Positions 773 to 20,650 of a DNA stretch of 20,650 bases are shown one piece after another; position 1 is the first letter of the stretch, and each line of letters opens with the position of its first letter. The DNA lies in IMG/VR virus record IMGVR_UViG_3300032284_001669, positions 1-20,650 of that record; one strand, 5' to 3'. A program made the translations under genes and the position numbers. The stretch is from a virus. The notes under the pieces were generated by a model. The model did not search any database. It was not told the origin of the DNA and saw only the letters and a list, made by a program, of their open reading frames with translations.

Positions 773-799
773 AAGGCTCGGTTAAGACCGAGCTTTTTT
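773..799 (+). terminator. Rho-independent terminator after the tRNA/GroES-like block
   Basis: A 7-bp GC-rich hairpin GCTCGGT (776-782) / ACCGAGC (787-793) with loop TAAG is followed directly by TTTTTT (794-799). The stem can extend with weaker pairs at 773-775. The T-run lies downstream on the plus strand, so it ends the rightward tRNA/GroES-like transcript. On the minus strand the hairpin is not followed by a U-tract. It touches the stop codon of the convergent cyclase gene (798-800), so the two transcription units meet here. Confidence 0.85.
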
Positions 800-2807: not shown

Positions 2808-3829
2808 TTTGACTGTTTAATATAAATGTTGTTGGTTGTGAAGTCTTGGTTCTTGATATTTATTGTAGTACCATTTTGAATCAAAGTTATATTATAGCCT
2901 CGATCTTTAGCAATTAATATAACTGCATCTTGTCCCATATGTCGTTCAACTTGCCAGTAGTAGTCCTTATCAAATATGTATACATTCGAAGTTGAGTTGA
3001 AACCAACCACAAAAGCATTCATGTCCAACGAATCAAATGCATTACCCAAATAATTTGTATCAAGTGCATTTATATCCAAAGCATTAAAGTTTAATGGATT
3101 CACGTAAGGCTTAATGTCGAGTGCATTTATATCTAGTCCATTAAACGCCAGTGCATCTGCTTTTGTTGCAGTCTGTTGTATTAGTTGTCTAACTATTTCT
3201 TTTGGTGGAGAAACAATCAACATATTATCAATTGCTGACTCCGACAATGGCAGTAAAACTGGTTTCAATGGTTTAACTTCTGAACCTGATGTGTGAGTTG
3301 CTTGAAATGCTTGATTCAATACGACTGTACCGGCAGATGTTTTAACTTCAATTTCACCAACACTTCCGTCTGGATTTGGAAGAAGAATGACTGTGGAGCC
3401 ACCAATCTCATCAACAGTCATCGAGAATGCGGTACCACGAACAGCAATAGATGCAGTTGGTGTATTGATTGCTACGTTCTTGCTGTTTTCATGTGCAACC
3501 GCACCTGAGGCATATCTAACTGTGCCAAGTGCAACTTTCATGGCTAGTTTGCCAGAACCTTTGGCTTTTGGATCATAAACAAAATCATCAATCAAAAGTT
3601 TTGAGTGTTCTGTCACACGCACTTTAGTATCATCTTGAAATGTTATACCAACAACACCATTATTTGTTTCAACAGTATCCATAGACTCGATGCCGCCATC
3701 TTTTTTGGCGACAATCTTAGCCTTATTGCGAGTTATTTCACCATTACCTTTTTCTTCAGTAATTGTGCCTATACCAGCAAAACAATTAATGCTGAATGAT
3801 AGCAGTAGAAGTATTATTGCCTGTAACAT
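2804..3829 (-). CDS. FecR-domain periplasmic protein with short tandem repeats
   Basis: The 341-residue protein starts with a signal peptide (MLQAIILLLLSFSINCFA, cut near residue 18), so it is probably periplasmic. A FecR domain spans about residues 25-175, with the characteristic NVAINTPTASIAVRGTAFSM (118-137). Residues about 226-273 hold imperfect 5-residue repeats of the type LDINA (GLDIN, ALDIK, ALDIN, ALDTN, SLDMN), followed by a beta-rich C-terminus. FecR-domain proteins beside CHASE2 cyclases are, from general knowledge, a recurrent bacterial gene pair, suggesting that FecR supplies a periplasmic partner or ligand for the CHASE2 sensor. The start lies 44 nt inside the upstream curlin-like gene. 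It is kept because it alone gives a signal peptide, and AGG lies upstream at modest spacing. The ligand is unknown. Confidence 0.88.
   Translation of the reverse strand: MLQAIILLLLSFSINCFAGIGTITEEKGNGEITRNKAKIVAKKDGGIESMDTVETNNGVVGITFQDDTKVRVTEHSKLLIDDFVYDPKAKGSGKLAMKVALGTVRYASGAVAHENSKNVAINTPTASIAVRGTAFSMTVDEIGGSTVILLPNPDGSVGEIEVKTSAGTVVLNQAFQATHTSGSEVKPLKPVLLPLSESAIDNMLIVSPPKEIVRQLIQQTATKADALAFNGLDINALDIKPYVNPLNFNALDINALDTNYLGNAFDSLDMNAFVVGFNSTSNVYIFDKDYYWQVERHMGQDAVILIAKDRGYNITLIQNGTTINIKNQDFTTNNIYIKQSK
3011..3154 (-). repeat. LDINA-type pentad repeats within the FecR-domain gene
   Basis: Residues about 226-273 of the FecR-domain protein contain recurring pentads (GLDIN, ALDIK, ALDIN, ALDTN, SLDMN) separated by short breaks such as PYVNPLNFN. 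They resemble, but do not cleanly match, the A(D/N)Lxx pentapeptide-repeat pattern. At DNA level, units related to GCATTTATATC recur on the plus strand. They may form a small beta-helical spacer or binding surface. Confidence 0.6.
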
Positions 3830-4502
3830 TTAGAGTAACCTGGTTAGGACGAGTTATTCCATCCTGTGTTATTGCTACAGAGTTACTGTTACCAATAATG
3901 CTTGTATTGATGTAGTGACCATTAGTTGTTGCTGATCCACCAGCACCAATTTGTGTGGTAGTCAATGTATTGGAGCTACCAGTAATAGTAATATTGTTCA
4001 CGGTATATGTACTATTAATATTACTTGTAATGATGTTTGAATTACCAACGGCAGTCAAAGAGTAATTGTAGTTACTCGCATTACTTGTAGTGCCCATGTT
4101 CAAGGTATGTGTGTTGTTGTCGCCAGTATAGGTCAAAGCTAATGTGCCTGAACCAGTACCAAAGTTACCTTGATTTAAAATCAAACTATTACCATTACCG
4201 GTTTGTGTGATTGTTGCAGTTGAATCACCACCAACAAAAGTACCAACGATAGAGTTGTTCATACCATCTTGTTGAATAGTTAGATTCATTGCATTACCAT
4301 CAATTACAAATTGTGGTGTTAACAAACTTGTAGGATCACCAACTTGGTTACCTGATCCTGTTTGTGTGATACTCACCGATGAGTTATCCGCATTTGTTTG
4401 GTCAATGTAAACGGAGTTTCCACCTGAGTCTGTTGCGAACACATTAACAGACAATAATAAAGACACAGCAATCATAATAACGCTTTGTCTTAAGTTTTTC
4501 AT
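3786..4502 (-). CDS. Curlin-like (CsgA/CsgB-type) amyloid repeat protein
   Basis: The 238-residue protein has a signal peptide (cut near VFA, residue 23) and a mature part rich in Asn, Thr, Ser, Gly, Ile and Val, with no cysteine. About eight curlin-type repeats are visible, in the pattern SxxxxxQxGxxNxx: SVSITQTGSGNQV (42-54), NLTIQQDGMNNSI (73-85), TATITQTGNGNSL (95-107), LALTYTGDNNTHT (121-133), YSLTAVGNSNIIT (147-159) and two or three near the C-terminus including SVAITQDG. Curlin repeats stack as beta-strand-loop-strand units and polymerise into extracellular amyloid. It sits directly after csgG (TAA immediately followed by ATG), so it is the obvious export substrate. Middle repeats lose the Gln, so it may be closer to a nucleator or a diverged fibre subunit than to CsgA itself. 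Confidence 0.87.
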   Translation of the reverse strand: MKNLRQSVIMIAVSLLLSVNVFATDSGGNSVYIDQTNADNSSVSITQTGSGNQVGDPTSLLTPQFVIDGNAMNLTIQQDGMNNSIVGTFVGGDSTATITQTGNGNSLILNQGNFGTGSGTLALTYTGDNNTHTLNMGTTSNASNYNYSLTAVGNSNIITSNINSTYTVNNITITGSSNTLTTTQIGAGGSATTNGHYINTSIIGNSNSVAITQDGITRPNQVTLNVTGNNTSTAIIQH

Positions 4503-5285
4503 TTATTCCTCTACTTTCTTAAAATCCCATAATCCTTTTCTTTTACCTTCATATACCATTTCTTCTACTGCCAATTCAATAGCGGCTTTTACCGCAAATA
4601 CTGTAGGTTCAGTAGAAGTTATACCAATTTCATTCTCAAAGGCTTTTGTGCCTTGGTTGAAAAATTTAAAAGTTGACATAGATGTTGCCACACTCAACAA
4701 AGTTTTTTGAGCATTTACTGTCAGCATCACTTCACCTGTCTGAACATTAACTGCCCTCAACGAAACGGTTACAATATCTTCTTGATAATTCGTTTGTGGT
4801 CCAATTCCCAAATAAGCAACACCAAAACCACCTGTCTTTTGGTTGGTGTCATATGAAACAATACCACCTTCAACAATCATACCCGCATAAAGAATTGGTC
4901 TAAGTATATTTGGATCTTTAGATTCTTCTCTTGCGGAACGAATCAGTTGTCTTTCTTTCAATAGATTTTCTAAACCTACTCGTTCAACAATTCTGAACCA
5001 TTTGCCATCACCAACATCAGCTAGTGCTTTTAACAACAATGATTCGCCTCCTTGTGTCACAGCAGATGAAAACTTTGCAACTGTTGCTGAATCTTTTTTC
5101 TGTCCAGTTTTATCTTGGAATGAATAAACTGCAATAACGATTGGTTGTCCAGTTGCAGGTTCAGGAAACGGTCTTTTGAATTTAGTTGGTGCCATCAACT
5201 CAGGTTGAGAATCTTCTCCTTTGATTGGAAAAGTATTACAGCCAGCAAGCATACTAATTAGGATTGATAATATAATTTTCTTCAT
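4503..5285 (-). CDS. csgG: CsgG curli secretion channel lipoprotein
   Basis: The 260-residue protein closely follows E. coli CsgG (277 aa) over its length. It has a lipoprotein signal with lipobox LAGC (Cys16), IVIAVYSFQDKTGQ, FRIVERVGLENLLKERQLIRSA, IVEGGIVSYDTNQKTGGFG, LGIGPQTNYQEDIVTVSLR, VNVQTGEVMLTVNAQKT and the C-terminal RKGLWDF. CsgG forms a nonameric pore in the outer membrane through which curlins pass unfolded. The constriction loop differs from E. coli (Y51, N55, F56 of mature CsgG): here it reads QKKDSATVAKFSS, one residue longer, keeping the Phe but placing Lys where Asn sits and losing the Tyr. It starts in a TGATG overlap with the csgF stop. Confidence 0.95.
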   Translation of the reverse strand: MKKIILSILISMLAGCNTFPIKGEDSQPELMAPTKFKRPFPEPATGQPIVIAVYSFQDKTGQKKDSATVAKFSSAVTQGGESLLLKALADVGDGKWFRIVERVGLENLLKERQLIRSAREESKDPNILRPILYAGMIVEGGIVSYDTNQKTGGFGVAYLGIGPQTNYQEDIVTVSLRAVNVQTGEVMLTVNAQKTLLSVATSMSTFKFFNQGTKAFENEIGITSTEPTVFAVKAAIELAVEEMVYEGKRKGLWDFKKVEE

Positions 5286-5731
5286 CAGTTCAATCCAAAT
5301 GTACCAACTGGTATAACAACTTGAGTTATATTTCCTGTTGGATCTGTAACTGTTAATGAAATTTGATCAGTTGTTTTCGTATACTTTATTGTATTACCTT
5401 CAAGATTCAAAGTTCCACTTGTTTGTGGATTCTCACCAAAAAGGTTATTGACCAATTGTGTTGAAAGTTGTGCATACACACGACTCTCAAAGTTGTTTAG
5501 GAATTTGGCCAAGTTTGTATTACCTGCGGCTGTAGCGGCATCTATTGCGGCTTGTTTCTGTGCGGCAATTATTGTTTGTTGTCTGGAGTATTCTGTATTC
5601 TCGATTGTCTGAACATGAGAGGAATAACCATTACCATTAAATTGTGGAGATTTGAATGCAAAACTCTGTTCAGCTTTGGCCGTTAGAGTCATCATGGCGA
5701 TAACTGCCACTATCATTTTTTTGTTTTTCAT
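5285..5731 (-). CDS. csgF: CsgF curli assembly factor
   Basis: This 148-residue protein has a signal peptide ending AKA (residue 20). The mature N-terminus EQSFAFKSPQFNGNG matches the conserved E. coli CsgF start (TMTFQFRNPNFGGNP), which is the part that inserts into the CsgG channel. A helix LAKFLNNFESRVYAQLSTQL (74-93) aligns with the CsgF neck helix, and the C-terminal beta part carries ISLTVTDPTGNITQVVIPVG. CsgF caps the CsgG pore on the cell surface and helps nucleate fibres. The start overlaps the preceding small membrane gene by 62 nt, with GAGGG upstream. An in-frame Met6 (5716) is a weaker alternative. Confidence 0.9.
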   Translation of the reverse strand: MKNKKMIVAVIAMMTLTAKAEQSFAFKSPQFNGNGYSSHVQTIENTEYSRQQTIIAAQKQAAIDAATAAGNTNLAKFLNNFESRVYAQLSTQLVNNLFGENPQTSGTLNLEGNTIKYTKTTDQISLTVTDPTGNITQVVIPVGTFGLN

Positions 5732-5963
5732 CTTTGAGTTCCCTCATCATTAGAACAATATTAACTTTTTGGTTCAATCTAATCAAATCATTATCTAACA
5801 TTCTAATGCGATCAATCAAAGCAATCAAAACCGTATTTGCTTCACCTAATGTTGGCTTTATTTCTTTGGTAGCCCAACCCCAAACATAATATATAAGATA
5901 TCCCATGCCACCTGCGGCAACGATTGGAAATCCATATTTATTAATTAATTCTGCTATATCCAT
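5670..5963 (-). CDS. Small single-span membrane protein, paralogue of its upstream neighbour
   Basis: The chosen start (MDIAELINKYGFPI) gives 97 residues. A longer reading from 6005 exists but would overlap the upstream gene by 41 nt, whereas this ATG sits one base after that gene's stop and aligns with the paralogue's start. It has one membrane segment (about 10-30, with GFPI at 11-14), an amphipathic helix (about 40-75: LIALIDRIRMLDNDLIRLNQKV) and a polar tail. The GFPI-plus-membrane-span layout resembles YvrJ-like and holin-like small phage proteins, but I cannot assign a function. Position at the head of a curli operon suggests a membrane accessory or holin-type role. Confidence 0.7.
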   Translation of the reverse strand: MDIAELINKYGFPIVAAGGMGYLIYYVWGWATKEIKPTLGEANTVLIALIDRIRMLDNDLIRLNQKVNIVLMMRELKDEKQKNDSGSYRHDDSNGQS

Positions 5964-5964
5964 A

Positions 5965-6243
5965 TCAATCCCGTCTTGCGTCATTCTTGCCATCTGCTCT
6001 GGCAATCCGGTCGATATCTGGTTTTACACCTAAAGCATTTGACACGAGAGTATCAATTCTGATAACATCATGATTCATTGTCTTAACTCGGTTATCCAAA
6101 GCATTAATGATACCTTTAATACCATTCACAGAACCAGTCACGCCTTGGAGAATAAACTTCAAGGTCAAGAACACAAAATATCCTGCGGCAAGGGCCGCGG
6201 CGATTGGAAAACCAACTTCGGCAACTAATTTGAAAAAATCCAT
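5965..6243 (-). CDS. Small single-span membrane protein, first gene of the curli operon
   Basis: The 92-residue protein (MDFFKLVAEVGFPI...) has one hydrophobic segment (about 10-32) and then a helix with regularly spaced hydrophobics (about 42-70: IINALDNRVKTMNHDVIRID), ending in a charged tail. It aligns with the next protein at MDxxxL, GFPIxAA, GY and a (D)NRxxxMxxDxIRxx core, so the pair arose by duplication. The ribosome binding site is weak. It is nearest the divergent control region at 6244-6320 and would be the first gene translated from the leftward transcript. Function is unknown; a holin or membrane scaffold for the secretion channel are both possible. Confidence 0.75.
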   Translation of the reverse strand: MDFFKLVAEVGFPIAAALAAGYFVFLTLKFILQGVTGSVNGIKGIINALDNRVKTMNHDVIRIDTLVSNALGVKPDIDRIARADGKNDARRD

Positions 6244-10597: not shown

Positions 10598-11921
10598 ATA
10601 CTTCACAGAAAAAACCGATAAAGTAATTTTCGATGAGATTATAAAATTCACTGAAGACTACAATACAACACCTACAATTGAATCGATTGGATTGGCCGTC
10701 AGAGAAAGACGTAACTTGAACGAAGAAGAAGTGGAAAAGTGTGAAGCATATATCAAAGAAATTGAATCGTCCAATAAAGAACAATCAGAAATTCAATGGC
10801 TCATTGATAAGACTGAAAAGTTCTGTCAAGAAAAAGCAATCTACAACGCTGTATTGAGTTCTATTTCGATAATTGATGGTAAAGATAAAAACCACGATAA
10901 AGGTCAGATACCAAAAATATTGTCAGATGCTTTGGCTGTAAGTTTTGATTCCTCAGTTGGTCATGATTATTTGGAAAACTCAGATGAACGATACGACTTT
11001 TATCACAGACATGAAGAACGTATACCGTTCGATTTGGAATTCTTCAACAAAATTACAAAGGGTGGTCTCCCTACTAAAACTCTCAACATTGCTCTTGCTG
11101 GCACTGGTGTCGGTAAGTCTCTTTTTATGTGTCATTGTGCCGCTGGAGCTATGTCGTTGGGTAGAAATGTTCTTTACATCACCATGGAAATGGCTGAAGA
11201 AAAGATTGCGGAACGTATAGATGCTAATTTGTTGAATGTGACCTTGGATAGTTTGATGGAACTTCCAAAGGATATGTATGACAAAAAAGTATCTAAGCTG
11301 AGAAGTAAGATTACCGGTAAACTGATCATCAAAGAATATCCAACTGCATCCGCTTCCGTAACACATTTCAGAGCATTATTGAATGAACTCAACCTTAAAA
11401 AGTCTTTTAAACCTGATATTATATTTGTCGATTATCTCAACATTTGTTGTAGTTCTAGAATTAAAGCAGGAGCTAATGTTAATTCGTATACTTATGTTAA
11501 GTCAATTGCAGAGGAACTTCGAGGACTTGCCGTTGAATACGGAGTGCCAATCGTGTCAGCAACCCAAACAACAAGAAGCGGGTTCACTTCATCCGATCCA
11601 GGACTTGAAGATACCAGCGAATCGTTTGGTTTGCCTGCTACCGCAGATATGATGTTTGCATTGATTACATCTGAAGAATTGGAAGAACTTGGCCAACTTA
11701 TGGTAAAACAATTGAAAAATCGTTATAATGATCCATCTTATTACAAGAGATTCACGATTGGTGTTGATCGAGCAAAGATGAGACTTTATGATGTTGAACA
11801 ATCTGGCCAAGATGGATTAGCCGATGTTGGCAACAATTCTCCTATACCTGATAGACCTTTGAATACGTTTGGAAACAGAGAAACACCAAACAAGAAAGAT
11901 TTTGGAGGATTCAAGATATAA
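10515..11921 (+). CDS. 41: Replicative DNA helicase (T4 gp41, DnaB-like)
   Basis: This 468-residue hexameric helicase (T4 gp41 is 475) opens with an N-terminal domain resembling gp41: MILKHLVYNEEYMRRVLPFL against IILSHLIFDQAYFSKVWPYM. The RecA-like motor has Walker A ALAGTGVGKS (K201, S202), catalytic Glu225 in YITMEMAEEK, Walker B DIIFVDYLN (Asp306) and the H4 segment SATQTTRSG (Gln351). It moves 5'-3' on the lagging strand and normally works with the gp61 primase, which is not in this window. The start at 10515 has GAGG upstream and keeps the conserved N-terminus; Met6 (10530) is the only other option, so the overlap with the previous gene is real either way. Confidence 0.95.
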   Translation: MKIEQMILKHLVYNEEYMRRVLPFLKTEYFTEKTDKVIFDEIIKFTEDYNTTPTIESIGLAVRERRNLNEEEVEKCEAYIKEIESSNKEQSEIQWLIDKTEKFCQEKAIYNAVLSSISIIDGKDKNHDKGQIPKILSDALAVSFDSSVGHDYLENSDERYDFYHRHEERIPFDLEFFNKITKGGLPTKTLNIALAGTGVGKSLFMCHCAAGAMSLGRNVLYITMEMAEEKIAERIDANLLNVTLDSLMELPKDMYDKKVSKLRSKITGKLIIKEYPTASASVTHFRALLNELNLKKSFKPDIIFVDYLNICCSSRIKAGANVNSYTYVKSIAEELRGLAVEYGVPIVSATQTTRSGFTSSDPGLEDTSESFGLPATADMMFALITSEELEELGQLMVKQLKNRYNDPSYYKRFTIGVDRAKMRLYDVEQSGQDGLADVGNNSPIPDRPLNTFGNRETPNKKDFGGFKI

Positions 11922-11924
11922 ATA
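11917..11924 (+). promoter_or_regulatory. T4-type late promoter box
   Basis: A perfect TATAAATA lies across the gp41 stop codon. Expected initiation near 11930 would give a roughly 20-nt leader carrying AAGGAG (11938-11943) before the ATG at 11950. Gene spacing, an exact consensus match and a good ribosome binding site together support late expression of the downstream gene and perhaps the glycosyltransferase cassette. Confidence 0.7.
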
Positions 11925-11949: not shown

Positions 11950-12897
11950 ATGGCATCAACACTTTCGTCTAGAGAATTAATGAAACCAGGAAGAGAGTGG
12001 CGTTTACAAAAATTTATTGATATGTATGAAAAGGGTGAAGAATTCACACTCGTACAAGGCTTAAAAAAAGTAAAATTGATAAAAGATGCATCAATAGTCA
12101 AAAAATTGAAAGCTAAAACTGGATTGGATCAAATTATTTTTACTACAAATGATTCTAAAAAGATCAAATTAGTAAATTTAGCCAAAACTTCGGATTTCGG
12201 TGGACTTGCTGACAAGAAACAATCCACAACACATATTGAAGAAAAAGAAATTAAAAGTATTCGTTCACAGTTAGATGAGATTCGTAAGAAAACTAAAAAA
12301 ACTACCGTTCCAATTAAAATAAAAAACAAAATATATGATGTTTTTGGTATCGCCAAAACACCAGGGACACCAAAATCAGATTTTCATTTTCTGGACGAAA
12401 AAGGCAACGAAATTGTATGGATGTCACATAAAGATGGAGGTTCAGCCAAGGATTTTCAGCAATGGGGTGGAATATCAAAAACTGTTCCAAATGTACATAA
12501 CCATAAAGAAACAAAAACTTTCGTCAATCAACTTGAAGAAAATTTTCCAGATGGTCTCACTAGAGGATCAAACATAGTTAAAGATATAAAAGATCCCATT
12601 TTGAAAGCTAAATCTGTATATGGAGATGATTACAAAAGAGGCTCTAGGGCTTATGGTAGAAACAATGTTACATTGTTGTTACAAGGTCCTGTGAAGATTG
12701 TACAAAGGGGTTCATATTATGTGATAGTATCTAACCACACACATGAAAATGGAAAAACTTTAACTGGTGATTATGAACCGACTTTTGCCGCACAATATAG
12801 AAGTGACCGTGGAGCACCAATAAAAAATGCTAGAGCTTCCGTGTGGCCAAAATATGTAGAAAAACGTGCCAAAACCATAAAATTACCAACCAAATAA
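11950..12897 (+). CDS. Late-type phage protein of unknown function
   Basis: The 315-residue basic, lysine-rich protein has an N-terminal module (LSSRELMKPGREWRLQKFID, then FTLVQG) and a helical linker (95-118). Its central part contains PKSDFHFLDEKGNEIVWMSH, KDG and DFQQWGGIS, spanning about 141-176. That central arrangement, Asp144 followed by strand-turn-strand and SHK (159-161), resembles the layout of PD-(D/E)xK nucleases with Ser replacing the acidic residue. This is a weak structural guess, not an assignment. It sits directly behind a perfect late box, which argues for a virion, packaging or late nucleic-acid role. I do not recognise the family. Confidence 0.75.
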   Translation: MASTLSSRELMKPGREWRLQKFIDMYEKGEEFTLVQGLKKVKLIKDASIVKKLKAKTGLDQIIFTTNDSKKIKLVNLAKTSDFGGLADKKQSTTHIEEKEIKSIRSQLDEIRKKTKKTTVPIKIKNKIYDVFGIAKTPGTPKSDFHFLDEKGNEIVWMSHKDGGSAKDFQQWGGISKTVPNVHNHKETKTFVNQLEENFPDGLTRGSNIVKDIKDPILKAKSVYGDDYKRGSRAYGRNNVTLLLQGPVKIVQRGSYYVIVSNHTHENGKTLTGDYEPTFAAQYRSDRGAPIKNARASVWPKYVEKRAKTIKLPTK

Positions 12898-12912: not shown

Positions 12913-13638
12913 ATGAATCCATTAGTGACAATAATCACACCAACAACTGGTGCATCAACACTTAGACAGGCCATTGAGTCTGTCAAATCTCAAACATACA
13001 AAGAGATTCAACATCTGGTTGTAGTGGATGGAAGTCATCCATCTGCTACACCTGTCTTGCAAGATTATCCACACTTAGATGTTATAAAGTTGCCGTATTC
13101 TACAGGCAAAGACCGGTTCAACGGTCATAGAATCTATGGTGCATCAATATACCTTGCTAAAGGTGAATTGTTTTGCTTTTTAGATGAAGATAATTGGTTG
13201 GATCCAGACCATGTAGAATCGCTGGTTCAAATCATGTTATCTGGAGCACCTTGGGCATTCTCCTTACGCAAAATAATGGATAAGGAAGGCAATTACATAT
13301 GTAACGATGATTGTGAGAGCCTAGGCAACTGGCCATCTATCCTATCTGATGATGATTACTTTGTTGATGTTGGTTGTTATTTTATTCCTAAGATGATAGC
13401 AATACAAACATCACAATTGTGGTATCGTAAAGCAAGAGAACCAGGTGTGCCTGAAATTGATAGAATACTTAGTCATGTATTACGATCAAACAAAGCGTTT
13501 GGAGTATGCAACAATAAGTATAGCCTAAATTATAGAACAGGCAACACTGGTTTGTCTGTACAGAAAGAATTCTTTATTAACGGTAATGAACACATGATGA
13601 AAAAATATAATGGGGTACTTCCATGGCAAAAGACTTAA
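12913..13638 (+). CDS. Family 2-like glycosyltransferase
   Basis: The 241-residue GT-A fold enzyme opens PLVTIITPTTGASTLRQAIES with QTYKEIQHLVVVDGS, the standard GT2 nucleotide-binding start, and has a DxD-type metal motif in CFLDEDNWLDPDH (D91, D93). A C-terminal acceptor region follows. GT2 enzymes move a sugar from a nucleotide-sugar to a glycan, lipid or protein. It is short (one catalytic domain, no membrane helix), so it should be cytosolic. It overlaps the next gene by 16 nt, and begins a run of six overlapping or abutting sugar-related genes. Donor and acceptor are not readable from sequence. Confidence 0.88.
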   Translation: MNPLVTIITPTTGASTLRQAIESVKSQTYKEIQHLVVVDGSHPSATPVLQDYPHLDVIKLPYSTGKDRFNGHRIYGASIYLAKGELFCFLDEDNWLDPDHVESLVQIMLSGAPWAFSLRKIMDKEGNYICNDDCESLGNWPSILSDDDYFVDVGCYFIPKMIAIQTSQLWYRKAREPGVPEIDRILSHVLRSNKAFGVCNNKYSLNYRTGNTGLSVQKEFFINGNEHMMKKYNGVLPWQKT

Positions 13639-14504
13639 TAATTGGAGCATTCAAAAACTATTCATTCAATCAAATCAAACCTTGGATTTACTCCATAAAT
13701 GAATGTGGTTTTAAGGGAGATAAAGTTTTAATTGCCATTGGTGCAAGTAATGAGACAATATCAAAAATAGCTGATGCAGGTTTTAAAGTAATCTCTGCTC
13801 CAAGTCAAAATGGTATGATGTTCCACATGGAAAGATTCATACATATTTACAATTACTTAAAAGAGTATATTGATGACTATAATTATGTTGTGACTACTGA
13901 TGTTCGTGATGTTATATTCCAAAAGAATCCATCTGATATCATACCTGCTTTTTTAGGTGATAGTAATGAAGAAGGTTGTGGTTTCTATAACACAATATCA
14001 TCTTCTGAAGGAATCAAAATTAAAGATGAACCATGGAACAGAGAAAATATTGTAAAATGCTTTGGTCCATTTTTCTATGAGCAAGTTAAAGATTGTGATG
14101 TTTTAAATGTTGGAACATTAGCAGGTCGAGCATGTGATATACGTGATTTGTGTGCCGCACTATTTCAAATGTCACTTAATCGTGCAGATTGGGTAGCAGA
14201 TCAAGCCGCCTATAATATTATGATGCGTTGGATACAATATAATGGTTTTGACTATTGCACAACATTAGAAGATGCATGGGCTTGTAACCTACATGTCACA
14301 AATAAACCAGATCAAATGGAACAATTTGGTCCATACTTATTGGGTGAAAGGCCGGTATTTGAAAATGGTTTGGTGCTTGATGGAAAGAATAAAAAACCTT
14401 ATTGTATAGTTCACCAATATGATCGTGTACCAGAAATGAAAAAATATTATGAAGCGAAATATGGAGTAGAAAATGTTATCACAATCAGAACTGACCATGT
14501 ATAA
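13623..14504 (+). CDS. Putative GT-A-type glycosyltransferase
   Basis: The 293-residue protein starts with a Rossmann-like strand (KDLIIGAFKNY), has VVTTDVRDVIFQ (D93, D96; a metal-binding DxxD/DxD position typical of GT-A enzymes), LNVGTLAG (a common acceptor/donor-side motif), a WVADQAAYNIM helix and a C-terminal IVHQYDR (264-267 HQYD), where a His often completes the metal site. I therefore call it a glycosyltransferase, though I cannot place the family number. It overlaps the preceding GT2 gene and the next oxygenase gene, indicating co-translation. Confidence 0.75.
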   Translation: MAKDLIIGAFKNYSFNQIKPWIYSINECGFKGDKVLIAIGASNETISKIADAGFKVISAPSQNGMMFHMERFIHIYNYLKEYIDDYNYVVTTDVRDVIFQKNPSDIIPAFLGDSNEEGCGFYNTISSSEGIKIKDEPWNRENIVKCFGPFFYEQVKDCDVLNVGTLAGRACDIRDLCAALFQMSLNRADWVADQAAYNIMMRWIQYNGFDYCTTLEDAWACNLHVTNKPDQMEQFGPYLLGERPVFENGLVLDGKNKKPYCIVHQYDRVPEMKKYYEAKYGVENVITIRTDHV

Positions 14505-15282
14505 TAAAATCAATAAAATATTGGTCAATGGATTAGATATAGAAGAACTCAAGAGTAACTTCTTTGAAGGTAAACCTTTCAATCATGTTATCATTGATAA
14601 TTTTTTCGATGAAGACTTTGCACTAGAAGTGGTCAAGGAATTGCCAGATTATAACAGCAATTACTTCGATGCGAAATATGATAACATGATTGAGAAGAAG
14701 AAAACTATTCAAAATTGGTCAATGTTTCCACCGAATGTTTATAAAGCATTCAATCTCTTGATGGGGCAATATTTTACTCTCTTGTTACGTGAGGTGACAA
14801 ATCAACCATGGTTAACGCCTGATATTGGGCTTCATGGTGGTGGAATACATATGCATCAAGCAGGCGATTATTTGAACACACATTATGATTATGAAATTCA
14901 TCCCAAACTTGACATGAAGCGTAAGTTGAATATTATCATTTATATGGAACCATCATGGCAACCAGAATGGGGTGGTAATTTAGAATTATGGTCACATGAT
15001 CCAGAAACAAACAGGCCAAAAGAATTGGTTTCTTCTATTACACCCAAATTCAATCGTGCCGTTATATTCGATACAACACAAAATTCGTGGCATGGTGTCA
15101 CTGGTGGTATTTTTTCACCAAAAGGTATTTACAGAAAGAGTCTTGCGGCTTATTATTTGATTCCAGCAACAGATGAGGAATTGAATGCTTCCCTTAGAAA
15201 AAGAGCACTTTTTGCCCCTAGAGTGGATCAAATTGATAACCCAGAAGTTGAAGAATTTATTAAAAACCGTTCGGAGATGTAA
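14473..15282 (+). CDS. 2-oxoglutarate/Fe(II)-dependent oxygenase (prolyl-hydroxylase-like)
   Basis: The 269-residue protein has the double-stranded beta-helix signature: GGIHMHQAGDYLNTHYDYE gives His137-x-Asp139, NSWHGV gives the distal iron ligand His207, and YRKSLAAYYL gives Arg221, which binds 2-oxoglutarate. The middle strands LNIIIYMEP and WGGNLELW are typical of prolyl-4-hydroxylase-like enzymes. Such enzymes hydroxylate proteins, sugars or small molecules. The start at 14473 has GGAG at 14463-14466, so it overlaps the preceding gene by 32 nt; Met9 at 14497 lacks a ribosome binding site. Its place between glycosyltransferases suggests it modifies a sugar or the peptide that will be glycosylated. 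Confidence 0.9.
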   Translation: MLSQSELTMYNKINKILVNGLDIEELKSNFFEGKPFNHVIIDNFFDEDFALEVVKELPDYNSNYFDAKYDNMIEKKKTIQNWSMFPPNVYKAFNLLMGQYFTLLLREVTNQPWLTPDIGLHGGGIHMHQAGDYLNTHYDYEIHPKLDMKRKLNIIIYMEPSWQPEWGGNLELWSHDPETNRPKELVSSITPKFNRAVIFDTTQNSWHGVTGGIFSPKGIYRKSLAAYYLIPATDEELNASLRKRALFAPRVDQIDNPEVEEFIKNRSEM

Positions 15283-16095
15283 ATGGGTAACATTAGTATT
15301 GTAACAGCATTTTTTGATATTGGTCGTGGTGATTGGACACCAGATAAAGGCTTACCACATTACTTACAAAGATCAACTGAAACATATATGGAAAGATTCT
15401 CACACTTAGCCAAGTTGGAGAATGATATGGCTGTGATCACAACACCAGAATTCACACAAAGAATTTTGGACTTGAGACAAGGTAGACCTACGATTGTCAT
15501 TGAAGATTCGTTGGATAACTATGATGATATCAGACAGAGAATCAAGAGTGTACAATCTGATCCAAATTTTCAAAAGTTGATTCATCCATCACAAGTTAAA
15601 AATCCAGAATATTGGAATGCTGATTATGTGTTGGTCAACTTTTTAAAATCAACCTTTGTTAGAAATGTAATCCGATCTGAACTATTCACAACAGATTTGA
15701 TTGCATGGTTGGATTTTGGTTACTGTAGAACAGCGGATAAGATTCCACCTAGCAAACGTTGGTCATATAATTTTAATCCAGATAAAATGCATATGTTCAA
15801 CTACAAAGATTTGGAAAAAGAACCATCTCTTTTACGCATCATATCAACCAATGATGTTTATATACTAGGTGCTAAAATTGTAGGTGGACAAAAAGCATGG
15901 ATAGAATTCAAAGATTTAATGGGTGTCTGTTTGGCCAATTTACTTAATAGCAAGTTGGTAGACGATGATCAAACCTTGATGTTAATGTCTACGATTTATA
16001 GACCACAATTGTTCGACCTACATAGAATACCAGACCATCAACTTGGTTTGGATCCATTTGTTATTTTAAAGGACTTTAATACAGATTATGAGTGA
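15283..16095 (+). CDS. HtrL/YibB-like (WlaTC/HtrL family) glycan-related protein
   Basis: The 270-residue protein opens with the family signature ISIVTAFFDIGRGDW (4-18), followed by YLQRSTETYMERFSHLAKLEN, and carries AWLDFGYCR (141-149), where an acidic residue sits on a strand as in GT-A metal sites. HtrL/YibB proteins occur in LPS core and surface-polysaccharide gene clusters and are thought to be glycosyltransferase-like; their biochemistry is poorly known. It follows the oxygenase stop without a gap and overlaps the methyltransferase by 8 nt. Confidence 0.82.
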   Translation: MGNISIVTAFFDIGRGDWTPDKGLPHYLQRSTETYMERFSHLAKLENDMAVITTPEFTQRILDLRQGRPTIVIEDSLDNYDDIRQRIKSVQSDPNFQKLIHPSQVKNPEYWNADYVLVNFLKSTFVRNVIRSELFTTDLIAWLDFGYCRTADKIPPSKRWSYNFNPDKMHMFNYKDLEKEPSLLRIISTNDVYILGAKIVGGQKAWIEFKDLMGVCLANLLNSKLVDDDQTLMLMSTIYRPQLFDLHRIPDHQLGLDPFVILKDFNTDYE

Positions 16096-16657
16096 TACTA
16101 TTATTTTCAATACTGAACAACAAGCATTCTCTCTTAGACCAGGTTTCAGAAAAAGTTCTGGCCATGGATTAGGTGAATTGGTCAAAAACATGGAAAATCC
16201 ATTTGTGGTCGAAATTGGTTGCTCCGAAGGTGACACAACTGAATGGCTACTACAATGTAATCCAACATTAAGAATTGTTTCCATTGATCCTTATGTTAAT
16301 TATGTGGATTGGAATGGCAACAATCTGAATGATAGACAGGAGTTTTATGAAAAGACTCTACGCCGGTTGCAACCATATGGTAATCGTTTCAGAATGATTA
16401 GAGATTATTCGGATAATGCTGTTAACATGTTTAGTGACAATATGATAGATGTGCTATTCATCGATGGATTACACACCTATGATCAGGTTTTAATTGACTG
16501 TAACAACTATTACTCCAAAGTTAAAACTGGTGGAATCTTCTCAGGACATGACTACAGAGTTATACCGGGTGTCAACAAAGCCGTTAACGAATTTGCGGCC
16601 AAAGTTGGTAAAGATATTTTAGAAACAGAATGTGACGTTTGGTATTGGTATAAATGA
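16088..16657 (+). CDS. SAM-dependent class I methyltransferase
   Basis: The 189-residue Rossmann methyltransferase has motif I VVEIGCSEGDTTEWLL (40-55), an acidic end of strand 2 in IVSIDPY (63-69), and VLFIDGLHTYDQVLIDCNNYY (122-142) with KTGGIFSGHDY, the pattern of the Methyltransf_24-type family often linked to sugar or small-molecule O-methylation. The C-terminus (GVNKAVNEFAAKVG, CDVWYWYK) is complete. It overlaps its neighbours at both ends (8 nt upstream, 4 nt downstream), so it belongs to the same cassette and may cap or decorate the glycan. Confidence 0.87.
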   Translation: MSDTIIFNTEQQAFSLRPGFRKSSGHGLGELVKNMENPFVVEIGCSEGDTTEWLLQCNPTLRIVSIDPYVNYVDWNGNNLNDRQEFYEKTLRRLQPYGNRFRMIRDYSDNAVNMFSDNMIDVLFIDGLHTYDQVLIDCNNYYSKVKTGGIFSGHDYRVIPGVNKAVNEFAAKVGKDILETECDVWYWYK

Positions 16658-17331
16658 ATTCATTGTTTATTATAACCTCTTGCATCAATAATCTACCAGG
16701 CAGAGGTGTTTTTTCACATGGTGAAAGATATGAACAAACTTTCGACACTATCGAGTCAATTAAAAGATTGGCTCCTGGTGCGAAAATTGTAATTGCAGAT
16801 GATTCTATTGAACCTTTAATTGATGAATGGATGTATAATCTATCAAGCAAGGTAGATAATTTCATTTCATTTAAAGAACACTTTGACATACAAAGATTGT
16901 CCAAAATGGGTCAACAGAGTTATGCGGAATGTATCCTGATGCTAGAATTGTTCAAATCATTACAGGATGGTGTGATTTTACCAGATTTTAAATCGGATAG
17001 AATATTCAAAATAACTGGTCGATGCTCCTTGGATGATGGTTTTGACCTGGGAAATTATAGTAACCTAAGTGATTGCTTCGTTTTCAAAAAACGAGTACAA
17101 TCTTGGATGAGATCAGATATTAGCCTGCTGGATACCAGATTATGGTCATTCAGTTCACCACTTTTATCGGATGCAGTAGAAATGTATCAAAAGATGACAT
17201 GGTACATAAATCAAGGTTTCGACCTTGAACACGCCAGCTTTGCCTGTGTTCCACAAGATAAATTGGTCGAATTTGACCGGGTTTACCTGAAAGGAAGAGT
17301 TGCCTCTGACGGAACCTGGCGCTACGATTGA
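16654..17331 (+). CDS. Putative glycosyltransferase-like protein
   Basis: The 225-residue protein begins with a hydrophobic strand (NSLFIITSCINN), has IVIADDSIEP (46-55), a helix AECILMLELFKSL and DRIFKITGRCSLDDGFD (115-131), then ends KGRVASDGTWRYD. The FKITGRxxL pattern is shared, as far as I recall, with uncharacterised GT-A-like proteins from bacterial polysaccharide loci. No clean DxD motif is visible, so catalysis is uncertain. It overlaps the methyltransferase by 4 nt (ATGA) and is the last gene of the cassette, followed by a late promoter. Confidence 0.6.
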   Translation: MNSLFIITSCINNLPGRGVFSHGERYEQTFDTIESIKRLAPGAKIVIADDSIEPLIDEWMYNLSSKVDNFISFKEHFDIQRLSKMGQQSYAECILMLELFKSLQDGVILPDFKSDRIFKITGRCSLDDGFDLGNYSNLSDCFVFKKRVQSWMRSDISLLDTRLWSFSSPLLSDAVEMYQKMTWYINQGFDLEHASFACVPQDKLVEFDRVYLKGRVASDGTWRYD

Positions 17332-17337
17332 AAGTAT

Positions 17338-17345
17338 TATAAATA
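17338..17345 (+). promoter_or_regulatory. T4-type late promoter box for the candidate internal-protein genes
   Basis: A perfect TATAAATA lies in the only gap between the sugar cassette (stop at 17331) and the next gene (ATG at 17388). Expected start near 17351 gives a leader of about 37 nt. The leader contains a GCAAC/GTTGC hairpin candidate but no clear Shine-Dalgarno before the ATG, which is odd for this genome. Confidence 0.75.
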
Positions 17346-17387
17346 TTCTTACGGCAACCAAAGTGTGTTGCAATTCTCAAAAAAACA

Positions 17388-18590
17388 ATGAAATCATTTA
17401 AATACTTTATCACAGAAGCAGAAGAAGCACCTGAACCTGAAGGCGAAAAGCTAAAGCATATCACCCATGCTGAAGATAGACCACTTCAAAAAGGGCCTGA
17501 AGGTTTCAGACATGCGGTAGAAGCTCTAAAACAAGCACATAACCACATTAAATCTGGTGGCCACAGTTCTGCTTTGTCTATGAAATATGATGGCTCACCA
17601 TCTTTGGTATTTGGCCACCATCCTGAAAGTGGTAAGTTTTTTGTTGCATCGAAGTCTGCATTTAATAAAACACCAAAAATCAATTTTACACATGATGATA
17701 TAGCTAAAAATCATGGCCACGCACCAGGCTTGATGGCTAAATTACATGACTCTCTCAATCACTTAAAGAAGATTACACCAAAAACTGGTGTTTACCAAGG
17801 TGATTTGATGTTCTCAGGTGATGATAAAAAAGAAACAAAGAATGGAGTATCGTTTACACCAAACACCATTCGATACACCGCAAAGGGACATGAGGCAGAT
17901 AAAGTCCGTAAAGCCAAATTGGGTATCGTTGTACACACACAATATCATGGAGACTCAGCCGCTTCAATGAAAGCTGATCCACATCCAGATTTGCATAATT
18001 TCAAAGAACACCCAGATGTTTGGAGAGTTTCTCCAAACCATGATACTCGACAAGTTCATTATTCTGACGAAGCACAGAAAGAATTTAACAATCATATCAA
18101 GGCGGCCGAAGATATACATAAAAAACACGGTAAACAAATGTACTCAGCGGTGCAACCACATTCAGGTTCTGGTGGCCATATGGAAACATATATCAATCAT
18201 ACAGTTAGAACTGATGAGAAGCCAAGTGCGGAAGGTTTAGCGAAGCACATTATGGATAAAGCTAAAAAAGCCTCTGAGAAAGTTAAAACTCCTGCGGCTA
18301 AAGCTAAGAAAACTGCTGAAGGTCAAGAACACGTTAATCATATAATGAACAATAAACAACATTATAATAATATGTTTAATATGCATGATCATCTACAGAA
18401 AGCTAAGGATGTTTTAGTACACACATTAAATCAACATGAGGGTGGGTTGGAACACCATGTTGAGGTTGGTAAAGGTGAAATGAAAAGAACTGATCCTGAA
18501 GGATTTGTTGTGCATCACGCAGGTGAACCGACTAAATTGGTTAACCGAAAAGAATTCAGTAAAATTAATCTATTGAAGGTCAGAAAATGA
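17388..18590 (+). CDS. Candidate packaged protein with ligase-like nucleotidyltransferase motifs
   Basis: The 400-residue, histidine-rich protein (about one residue in ten is His) starts MKSFKYFITE-A, very like the T4 internal-protein capsid-targeting sequence MKTYQEFIAE-A with an I-x-E cleavage site. Downstream it has motifs of covalent nucleotidyltransferases (DNA/RNA ligases): motif I SMKYDGSPSLVFG (Lys66, KxDG), a motif III-like GVYQGDLMF (134-142), motif IV DPEGFVVHH (369-377) and a motif V-like KLVNRKEF (383-390). Motifs III and IV are separated by about 230 residues including a Lys/Ala-rich helix (288-310), which is unusual for ligases. It could be an active ligase, a relative using another acceptor, or an inactive structural form. 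It overlaps the next gene by 4 nt. Confidence 0.75.
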   Translation: MKSFKYFITEAEEAPEPEGEKLKHITHAEDRPLQKGPEGFRHAVEALKQAHNHIKSGGHSSALSMKYDGSPSLVFGHHPESGKFFVASKSAFNKTPKINFTHDDIAKNHGHAPGLMAKLHDSLNHLKKITPKTGVYQGDLMFSGDDKKETKNGVSFTPNTIRYTAKGHEADKVRKAKLGIVVHTQYHGDSAASMKADPHPDLHNFKEHPDVWRVSPNHDTRQVHYSDEAQKEFNNHIKAAEDIHKKHGKQMYSAVQPHSGSGGHMETYINHTVRTDEKPSAEGLAKHIMDKAKKASEKVKTPAAKAKKTAEGQEHVNHIMNNKQHYNNMFNMHDHLQKAKDVLVHTLNQHEGGLEHHVEVGKGEMKRTDPEGFVVHHAGEPTKLVNRKEFSKINLLKVRK

Positions 18591-19942
18591 AAAGTTTCAA
18601 AACATTTATTACTGAAAACTTAGGTGACGACCATGATTTTGGTAGCCAAAAACCATATCACTCATACACAACTGATGATGGTCATAAAATAGATGTACAT
18701 GTTATCAATCGTTTAGGTGGTAAATCTGCAATATTTTACAATAAGAATCTAGGTGATGTAACTAAAGTTGCACACTGGGGTTTAAATGCGGATGAGCCAA
18801 CCAAAGAAGATTTGAGGAAAATTGGTCATGATGAAGAAGATGAACATGGCCAAAGTTTGTTGGAAAAATTTACTGCTGGTGGTGATATAACTCCAGACAC
18901 TGCTGGTAAAATAGCCGAACACTCTACAGCAATGCATTTGATGCATATTGCACATAAAACTTCTGGAACATATGGTTCTCCTGAACATAAAAAAGCAATT
19001 CAACCACATATTGATGCTATTAATAAATTAGGTCAAGGCGCAAAAGCCGAACATGTCGATACAAGAGTTGAGCATGGTAAAATAGCCGCAAATGCTATAC
19101 ACGAAGCAATTCGTCAGAAACATGGTGAGGGTGCCACAATTACTTCTGTCGGACACACATCAAAAAAAGGTGATATTGGAAGATTCACAAAAGGTCAACA
19201 TAATGATACACAAGAAAATCCTTCAGATGTTTCTATTGAAGTTTCTAATTCACAACATGCTTTAGGACCAGAAGAAAAGCATTATGAAGGTTATTCTTTA
19301 AAATCTTCCAAAAAATCTAATGTCATAACTGCAAAAAATCCATCAATTCATATGGATGGTATTCTTGACCATCCAAGAAGAAAACTTAATACGGATGCTA
19401 TCTCTAGAACTGAGTTGGGAAAAGTACACACAATGTTGGGAGTCGGTCATCTGAAATCTAGTGAAAGAAAGAAATATCTTGATGATTTCCGCAAAAAAGA
19501 AGGCGTTAAGTCTGATTCTTCACTTGAAGGTGCTACAAATGAATTGGCTCGTCCAGCAAAAACTTCAGTTGCAAAAGAATTACATGACCACTTAGATTTC
19601 TTAACAAAACATTCTGAGGGCCATGAAATGATAGGAAAAATGCTTAAAAAACATTTGACTGCTGATACCAGTATGCCATGGTCAAAAGTTCACATCAAAG
19701 GTGATACACCTTCAAAAGTTCATGCCGCAGTAACATCTGGTAGTGATTCTCCACTAAATAAATTGTTCAATGATAAAACCACAAAATATGCTGTTACTAG
19801 AAATGGTGATAAAGTGACTGTACACAAAAAAGAGAAAAATGGATCAATGACTCCTTTAGCACACTATTCACCTAAAACAAAATCTAACGCTTTTAAAGAA
19901 AACGTTCATGGATGGAACGTATTACCAGCAAAAATACACTAA
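18587..19942 (+). CDS. Candidate packaged protein of unknown function (MKSFK leader)
   Basis: The 451-residue hydrophilic, His/Lys-rich protein starts MKSFKTFITE-N, the same leader as its neighbours. A mixed alpha/beta region follows, with a segment NPSDVSIEVSNSQ (211-223) and, after a loop, HYEGYSLKSSKKSN (232-245). The Asp214/Glu218...Lys239 spacing and strand pattern faintly recall the PD-(D/E)xK nuclease core; I give this low weight. It is coupled to the upstream gene by ATGA and followed one base later by the next gene. I do not recognise the family. High charge and the leader fit a protein held inside the capsid with DNA. Confidence 0.7.
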   Translation: MKSFKTFITENLGDDHDFGSQKPYHSYTTDDGHKIDVHVINRLGGKSAIFYNKNLGDVTKVAHWGLNADEPTKEDLRKIGHDEEDEHGQSLLEKFTAGGDITPDTAGKIAEHSTAMHLMHIAHKTSGTYGSPEHKKAIQPHIDAINKLGQGAKAEHVDTRVEHGKIAANAIHEAIRQKHGEGATITSVGHTSKKGDIGRFTKGQHNDTQENPSDVSIEVSNSQHALGPEEKHYEGYSLKSSKKSNVITAKNPSIHMDGILDHPRRKLNTDAISRTELGKVHTMLGVGHLKSSERKKYLDDFRKKEGVKSDSSLEGATNELARPAKTSVAKELHDHLDFLTKHSEGHEMIGKMLKKHLTADTSMPWSKVHIKGDTPSKVHAAVTSGSDSPLNKLFNDKTTKYAVTRNGDKVTVHKKEKNGSMTPLAHYSPKTKSNAFKENVHGWNVLPAKIH

Positions 19943-19943
19943 A

Positions 19944-20650
19944 ATGAAATCATTTAAGCAATTAATCGTAGAGAAAAATGACGAATCCAATCCAGTTGTG
20001 ATGGCGTTTGGTCGTATGAATCCTCCAACAACAGGACATTTGAAATTGATTCATAAAGTGCATGATATTGCAGATAAAGAAAAAGCGGCCCATGCAGTTA
20101 TAGTTTCACACTCTCAAGATTCTAAAAAGAATCCATTGTCTACTCAACAAAAATTAAAACATCTACAACGTTATTCACCTGAAACACATTTTGTTGGTTC
20201 ATCTTCAAATGAGCCATCTTTGTTACATCATGCTTCCAATCTGTACAAAATGGGCCATAAGCATTTAATTATGGTTGCAGGTTCAGACCGTGTTAAAGAG
20301 TATCATGATTTACTACACAAATATAACGGAGTAGAAGGAAGACACGGTCATTTCAATTTCAAAAAAATAGAAGTTCGTTCCGCAGGCCACCGTGATCCTG
20401 ATGCTGAAGGTGAAGAAGGCATGTCAGGATCTAAAATGCGCCAACATGCGAAGAACAATGACTTCTCATCTTTTAGACAAGGTGTACCTAGTCATGTATC
20501 AGATCATGATGCTAGGGAATTGATGCATGATGTCCGTAAAGGAATGAACTTACATGAAAGTCATAATCGCGGATTGAACAAAGCTATTTTTGTTACAGGT
20601 GGTCCAGGTTCAGGTAAAGATATCATTTTACGTGAATGTATTGCTGAACA
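19944..20650 (+). CDS. Candidate packaged nucleotidyltransferase fused to a P-loop domain (partial)
   Basis: The reading frame is open to the window end (235 codons, no stop), so the protein is truncated here. It starts MKSFKQLIVE-K, again the shared leader. Residues about 17-180 form a cytidylyltransferase/NMN-adenylyltransferase-like domain: VVMAFGRMNPPTTGHLKLI carries the (H/T)xGH nucleotide-binding signature (TTGH 29-32), then VAGSDRVKEY (111-120), and GMSGSKMRQ (159-167) corresponds to the ISSTxxR-type motif. A second domain begins with a Walker A loop FVTGGPGSGKD (216-226), as in a kinase or ATPase. The order resembles NadR-type fusions (adenylyltransferase then kinase), suggesting NAD metabolism, but the second domain could equally be a different P-loop enzyme. 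No Shine-Dalgarno is clear; it probably relies on coupling. Confidence 0.83.
   Translation, partial: MKSFKQLIVEKNDESNPVVMAFGRMNPPTTGHLKLIHKVHDIADKEKAAHAVIVSHSQDSKKNPLSTQQKLKHLQRYSPETHFVGSSSNEPSLLHHASNLYKMGHKHLIMVAGSDRVKEYHDLLHKYNGVEGRHGHFNFKKIEVRSAGHRDPDAEGEEGMSGSKMRQHAKNNDFSSFRQGVPSHVSDHDARELMHDVRKGMNLHESHNRGLNKAIFVTGGPGSGKDIILRECIAE

Follow-up and report, generated by a model that had tools for sequence, protein, structure and literature searches.

Three consecutive genes of a T4-like phage fragment share a leader resembling the T4 capsid-targeting sequence

The locus

The DNA analysed here (the window) is the 20,650-base IMG/VR record IMGVR_UViG_3300032284_001669, a phage fragment in which genes read as those of gp43 (DNA polymerase), UvsX and gp41 (helicase) are ordered as in T4-like phages, and whose close annotated relatives are Kyanoviridae. 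Downstream of gp41, beyond an islet of sugar- or modification-type genes, lie three consecutive genes whose products begin with a similar stretch of ten residues, which resembles the capsid-targeting sequence (CTS) of the T4 internal proteins (IPs). The features of this locus are as follows.

17338..17345, + strand: T4-type late promoter box TATAAATA, 50 nt ahead of the protein 1 ATG
17354..17371, + strand: RNA hairpin GCAAC-CAAAGTGT-GTTGC in the 5′ untranslated region, between the box and the start, with the loop CANAGUGY
17388..18590, + strand: protein 1, 400 aa, complete open reading frame (ORF); DUF6267 (PF19782, phrog_455) with KxDG-type nucleotidyltransferase-like motifs, ligase-like
17388..17417, + strand: leader of protein 1, capsid-targeting-like, MKSFKYFITE
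18587..19942, + strand: protein 2, 451 aa, complete ORF; no family, relatives only in IMG/VR
18587..18616, + strand: leader of protein 2, capsid-targeting-like, MKSFKTFITE
19944..20650, + strand: protein 3, 235 aa, truncated at the contig end; cytidylyltransferase/NMN adenylyltransferase (NMNAT)-like domain, then a P-loop domain
19944..19973, + strand: leader of protein 3, capsid-targeting-like, MKSFKQLIVE, with L at position 7

The genes of proteins 1 and 2 share four bases and that of protein 3 begins just past the end of protein 2, so the three are read as one operon. All three products are basic (pI ~9 for each).

The shared leader

The strict leader motif, defined as M..[FY]..[FYLIM][ILVF].E, gave three matches in the 24 called genes of the window against about 0.04 expected from the rate of the motif in protein interiors (Poisson p ~1e-5). 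No 10-mer is identical among them: the leaders differ at positions 7–10 (FITE, FITE and LIVE), and their common part is F4-x-x-[FL]7-I8-x-E10. After removal of the leaders, BLASTP of the three proteins against each other gave nothing better than E 0.098. The initial annotation had listed these three N-termini and described the downstream parts as unrelated; both statements were borne out, the leader occurs at a frequency beyond chance, and its sharing by the three proteins is confirmed.

In T4, residues 1–10 of IPIII are enough for packaging, residues 4 and 7 mainly governing targeting and residues 8 and 10 processing (review of T4 head assembly, PMC9026906). The leader positions kept here (F4, F/L7, I8 and E10) coincide with those mapped in IPIII, and the features of a T4-type CTS (a leader of about ten residues with aromatic residues at 4 and 7, I/L at 8 and E at 10) are found in the trio, protein 3 having L7. 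The mature parts of proteins 1–3, compared with T4 IPI–III, matched no IP family; they correspond to DUF6267, an orphan and CTP_transf_like instead. A scan of T4 with the strict motif returned ipII, ipIII and gp61.1, so the motif is specific in the one genome for which the answer is largely known. The last of these, gp61.1 (NC_000866 18966-19130, L313; 54 aa), begins MKTFKEFIKED and is predicted to be an additional CTS-bearing internal protein; small tagged proteins of about its size are present in the records G001, G002, G003 and G009.

The three proteins and their relatives

Among the IMG/VR relatives of protein 1 the leader reads MKSFKYFITE, MMHFKTFLKE, MRSFTSFLTE, MISFLHFLKE or MQTFKTFLTE. 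Conservation of F4 and E10 is at least 90% across 24 DUF6267 homologues, the most distant with 27% identity, and the linker that follows, up to residue 23, differs among them in both length and sequence. AlphaFold modelled protein 1 with confidence (pLDDT 88.8) save for residues 1–20, which are disordered, and the predicted anatomy is that of a tag followed by a linker and then the folded part. Motifs placed by eye on invariant columns (K66-D68-G69, Q137-G138-D139, F156-P158-N159, E371-G372-V374, K383 and R387) follow the order of the covalent nucleotidyltransferase motifs I (KxDG), III, IIIa, IV (EG) and V, with a helical insertion, and protein 1 probably resembles this class of enzymes (ligase/capping). 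A fold search of protein 1 against the PDB gave no match with E <0.001, the low-probability matches including RNA editing ligase, tRNA ligase and the adenylation domain of NAD+ ligase; a profile search against the PDB gave nothing significant, and the BFVD matches were phage relatives, several of them named as cytidyltransferase-like fusions. One candidate connection was discarded: a DUF6267 profile match to other tagged ligase-like proteins vanished when the leaders were cut, and had therefore come from the leader.

For protein 2, the leader in relatives reads MKSFKTFITE, MKRFSVYVTE or MKLGFLDYLAE, i.e., the pattern survives substitutions, and its retention in the relatives of both proteins 1 and 2 despite such changes is as expected under selection. 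No match was obtained by tblastn in phages, a profile made from three sequences found no more relatives among the fetched loci, and the structure model is poor (pLDDT 52.7), so that a PD-(D/E)XK-like pattern seen by eye (SDVSIEV...EGYSLKSS) is a guess.

The leader of protein 3 appears in IMG/VR relatives as MKSFKQLIVE, MKSFLELVEE and MKTFRDLLEE. Its domain matches are PF01467 (CTP_transf_like, E 2.5e-7) and phrog_3041 (E 7.5e-65), which firmly predict an NMNAT-like enzyme with a P-loop domain; the NadR equivalog score lay far under its cut-off, NCBIfam gave only weak or general nucleotidyltransferase models, and a profile search against the PDB found nothing. A PADLOC search matched no family. 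In some phages (S-PM2; phrog_455) the DUF6267 and NMNAT-like domains form a single protein, and proteins 1 and 3 may accordingly work together. Speculatively, protein 1 might be an NAD+-using ligase whose NMN product would be recycled by the NMNAT of protein 3. The earlier description of all three as enzymes thus stands firmly for protein 3 and as likely for protein 1, and falls short for protein 2, which has no family.

Spread of the leader and the prohead protease

Loci in IMG/VR were picked by pattern or homology, so the following counts show diversity, not frequency. A scan with MK[ST]FKxFIxE gave at least 80 loci with at least 88 starts among the matches listed, and the 84 proteins of at least 40 aa from these loci fell into 41 BLAST clusters. 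In the first 80 listed loci, 36 of the 868 non-bait ORFs were tagged, against about 0.5 expected. Over all fetched loci, the tagged proteins numbered 230, from 144 IMG/VR loci, and fell into 81 BLAST clusters, with Ala the commonest residue at position 11, as in T4. The domains found on tagged proteins included ART-PolyVal, ADPrib_exo_Tox, HicA, HD_4, adenylate kinase, RNA_ligase (below cut-off), acetyltransferase and DUF6267. One such protein (L107, 12007-12633) combines the leader with a HicA toxin domain and DUF6321 and may be a virion-delivered toxin-like protein, and a 14-kb contig (L129, 3442-9422) carries seven tagged proteins, five with the exact pattern and some ADP-ribosyltransferase-like by eye.

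The window is a fragment devoid of head genes, and the evidence for the S77 prohead protease comes from relatives. This protease was found in all scanned leader-bearing records of at least 100 kb, including the 161.8-kb relative G001, and in one of 22 short tagged contigs, these being fragments. The strict leader occurred 48 times in 3,367 genes of S77-positive genomes and relatives' fragments and not once in 516 genes of S77-negative controls (SPO1, Felix O1 and 156 kb of phiKZ); genomes were scanned whole or largely, and several of the S77-positive ones had been chosen for carrying the leader. S77 can occur in a phage without the tag: phiM12 and HTVC008M have the protease and no strict leader. 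In the major capsid proteins of relatives, an N-terminal stretch of about 50–60 residues ends in FLTE, FLSE, FLGE, LLGE, FLYE, ILTE or LNE and abuts a conserved, likely mature start, as FLTE does in T4, a pattern with which the leader ends too; these phi-[LI]-x-E sites (phi being a hydrophobic residue) may mark protease cuts.

Tagged proteins in the virions of relatives

For S-CREM2, 52 virion proteins are given in Table 3 of PMC10665884. Four of its proteins have a strict leader at the annotated start, and all four are on that list.

gp6: SAM hydrolase, MKDFDSFLEE, virion
gp14: kinase, GTG start, MKRFDAFLTE, virion
gp136: MQTFSMFFSE, virion
gp154: cytidylyltransferase, protein 3 homologue, MKNFSSFLTE, virion

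The overlap has a hypergeometric p of 0.003 (background of about 219 coding sequences, i.e., 221 annotated features minus two tRNAs), and of 0.0003 among non-structural proteins. Near-leaders were seen in two more proteins of the same table, gp13 (MKDLHSFLTE) and the Cas9-like gp12 (LRFASFMAE near the N-terminus); the annotated start of this virion nuclease (OR473000 7704-10313) may lie too far upstream.

The sole strict match at annotated starts in S-SM1 is SSM1_190 (T4-GC190, a protein 3 homologue), which was detected in virions by Sullivan et al. (PMC3037559); in S-SCSM1 the NMNAT gp281, likewise found in the virion, is the sole strict match. Hence, by the virion tables of these reports, six of six strict annotated-start matches in cyanophages characterised by mass spectrometry (MS) are virion proteins. 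The T4-GC190 homologue of S-PM2 has no leader, following directly after the DUF6267 C-terminus, and was not detected in S-PM2 virions (PMC3037559), a non-detection that is weak evidence because the analysis is an older one. Likewise, the DUF6267 proteins gp87 of S-CREM2 and gp115 of S-SCSM1, both untagged, are absent from the virion lists of those phages. Within the NMNAT and DUF6267 families, tag and virion listing agreed in all six of the six cases. The passages of PMC10665884 and PMC3037559 searched by term make no mention of a targeting leader.

These data bear on two alternatives to packaging of all three proteins. It is conceivable that only protein 3 is true cargo, proteins 1 and 2 keeping an ancestral leader and acting in the cytoplasm, given that the direct MS support from the published lists falls, among the three, on the NMNAT family, and that many cyanophage DUF6267 proteins are leaderless and missing from the two lists checked. 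The near-invariance of F4 and E10 in distant DUF6267 homologues and the persistence of the pattern in protein 2 relatives speak against it, and we regard it as distinctly improbable. The second alternative, that the leader is an N-terminal cassette spread by recombination and having no packaging role (an expression or initiation element, or a binding site for another partner), draws on its modular attachment to dozens of families and on the tagged gp030 of S-SCSM1, one residue off the strict motif and missing from the virion list. It is hardly credible, however, as it is the amino acids that are conserved, the codons and flanking residues being variable, the leader finishes with a protease-type I/L-x-E, and the strict matches of the cyanophages are, by the published lists, all virion-borne with untagged homologues not reported.

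Late promoter box and hairpin

The initial annotation had also claimed a perfect late promoter. The box upstream of protein 1 is present and is kept 45–66 nt ahead of the start in close homologous loci, although many of these are near-identical, so that the independent loci are few (about eight lineages). The count in the window carries no weight by itself, since two copies of TATAAATA on the + strand against 0.94 expected are not significant. More distant homologues (e.g., L188, L198, L118 and L117) have no TATAAATA within 100 nt upstream, and G001 has only seven forward copies. Late expression of the operon from the conserved box is predicted on these grounds. The second copy, at 11917-11924, lies directly upstream of the gene at 11950-12897 (315 aa, phrog_13937, leaderless), which may also be a late product.

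In the hairpin between box and start, the loop CANAGUGY is conserved and the five-pair stem covaries: three of the five pairs are changed on both sides and 95% of cells are paired, against 12–60% in slid controls. In close relatives this hairpin is found after a late box once per genome. It is a candidate translational operator of the operon, a role that is a guess.

Neighbouring genes

The islet separating gp41 from the tagged operon (12913-17331) holds glycosyltransferase, 2OG-Fe(II) oxygenase, HtrL_YibB and methyltransferase genes. The interval corresponding to that of the three genes, downstream of gp41, is taken up by DUF6267 and cytidyltransferase genes in Melnitz, HTVC008M and Syn1. A minus-strand block at 798-6243 encodes a CHASE2-cyclase, FecR, a curlin-repeat protein, CsgG and CsgF, that is, a curli-type secretion set with a nucleotide cyclase, carried by the phage.

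Probable packaging and proposed delivery of the cargo

We consider it highly probable, overall, that the locus is one late operon whose three products bear a T4-type CTS, are packaged in the head and are delivered with the DNA. Head packaging, as proposed from the outset, is well supported by the match to the IPIII residues, the S77 protease of relatives, the tagged virion proteins and the conserved late box; cleavage after E10 is likely by analogy, and injection would follow the T4 precedent, in which IPs, and fusions to the CTS, pass into cells by ejection (PMC9026906). Late in infection, the leader (F4, F/L7) would dock each protein onto the prohead core, and the S77 prohead protease (the gp21 homologue) would cut after I/L-x-E10, freeing the mature protein within the head. 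DNA would then be packaged around the cargo, an NMN-adenylyltransferase-like P-loop enzyme (protein 3), the ligase-like DUF6267 protein (protein 1) and the basic protein 2, and the proteins would enter the next host cell along with the genome, to be active at once, ahead of any phage gene expression.

Several points weigh against this explanation. Occurrence of the leader on early cytosolic proteins had been named beforehand as the finding that would count against packaging; none was seen among replication genes, yet an adenylate-kinase-like protein is tagged, and this protein and tagged deoxynucleotidase-like proteins could act late in the cytosol. The gp030 of S-SCSM1, whose start MKTFKQFMSE narrowly misses the strict motif, is not virion-listed, untagged proteins occur in virions too (e.g., the neighbours of the S-SCSM1 NMNAT), and virion lists may contain co-purified cell proteins. 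The virion support comes from other phages, where it covers the tagged NMNAT homologues and gp6, gp14 and gp136 of S-CREM2. Finally, some pelagic DUF6267 proteins (L163, L110, L120, L209 and L005-L007) begin MFSFKGFxTK, with E10 lost; they retain the targeting residues, as if packaged yet uncut. As a separate observation, the tagged NMNAT of S-SCSM1 lies in a run of five adjacent virion proteins (NC_070962 86357-91835, L317), most of them leaderless, pointing to a different virion route.

A further possibility is that the leader does target the prohead core and the proteins act only in assembly (as scaffold or in DNA-end processing), and are not delivered as active enzymes. The T4 core proteins gp22, gp67 and gp68 are largely degraded or lost (PMC9026906), the operon has a late promoter box, and ligase-like cargo could work on packaged DNA. 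This is nevertheless unlikely, as tagged NMNAT homologues persist in the mature virions of three cyanophages according to the published lists, T4 IPs and CTS fusions reach the cell, and NAD metabolism has no obvious use in the head.

A wider proposal can be made, to which we incline only slightly: that F-x-x-[FY]-[IL]-x-E is a portable cargo tag across freshwater and marine T4-like phages, borne by dozens of unrelated enzymes and toxin-like proteins, and that the three genes of this phage form a kit that could serve to repair ends of DNA or RNA and to restore NAD+ upon genome entry. The proposed cargo would comprise NMNAT, DUF6267 ligase-like proteins, RNA ligase, ADP-ribosyltransferases, HicA, SAM hydrolase, a Cas9-like nuclease and kinases. 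Sequence gives no means of recognising head cargo, and little is therefore known of what phages inject along with their DNA; were the proposal true, a genome-scale list of phage-delivered effectors could be read from the first ten residues. If the leader marks cargo reliably, as the virion data suggest, it would reveal where and when many uncharacterised phage proteins act, and would allow early counter-defence or takeover enzymes to be catalogued from genome sequences. The recurrence of NMNAT-like enzymes in cyanophage virions would also find an explanation in it.

Comparison with known systems

The mechanism is known, and varied cargo was already foreseen in the review of the T4 head (PMC9026906); the new elements are a group of tagged enzymes encoded in one operon and the correspondence of the tag with published virion lists. 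The locus resembles T4 IPII and IPIII in its ten-residue leader of the MKTYQEFIAE type (aromatic 4 and 7, I/L 8, E 10), in its basic proteins and in the S77 protease, found here in relatives. The T4 IPs, however, are small and not known as enzymes, whereas the cargo here consists of larger, enzymatic or enzyme-like proteins unrelated to the IPs and encoded in one operon beside replication genes. T4 Alt, an ADP-ribosyltransferase, is likewise a head-packaged enzyme, trimmed by gp21 and ejected for early action, but has its own 7-residue propeptide, whereas the ART-like proteins of IMG/VR bear an IPIII-type leader. The ejection proteins of SPN3US and phiKZ are also numerous, head-packed, cleaved by a prohead protease and ejected; in contrast, the strict leader is absent from 156 kb of phiKZ, and PF03420 has no match in the phiKZ genome.

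The closest likeness in cargo is to the virion NMNAT/cytidylyltransferases of cyanophages (S-SM1 T4-GC190, S-SCSM1 ORF91 and S-CREM2 ORF154), which are tagged, MS-detected homologues of protein 3, although the DUF6267 proteins of those phages are without the tag. In the NAD+ reconstitution pathways (NARP1; NadR-like NMNAT), NMNAT-like chemistry could similarly restore NAD+ depleted by host defence, and the present phage would differ in bringing such an enzyme into the cell by virion delivery, as proposed from its sequence.

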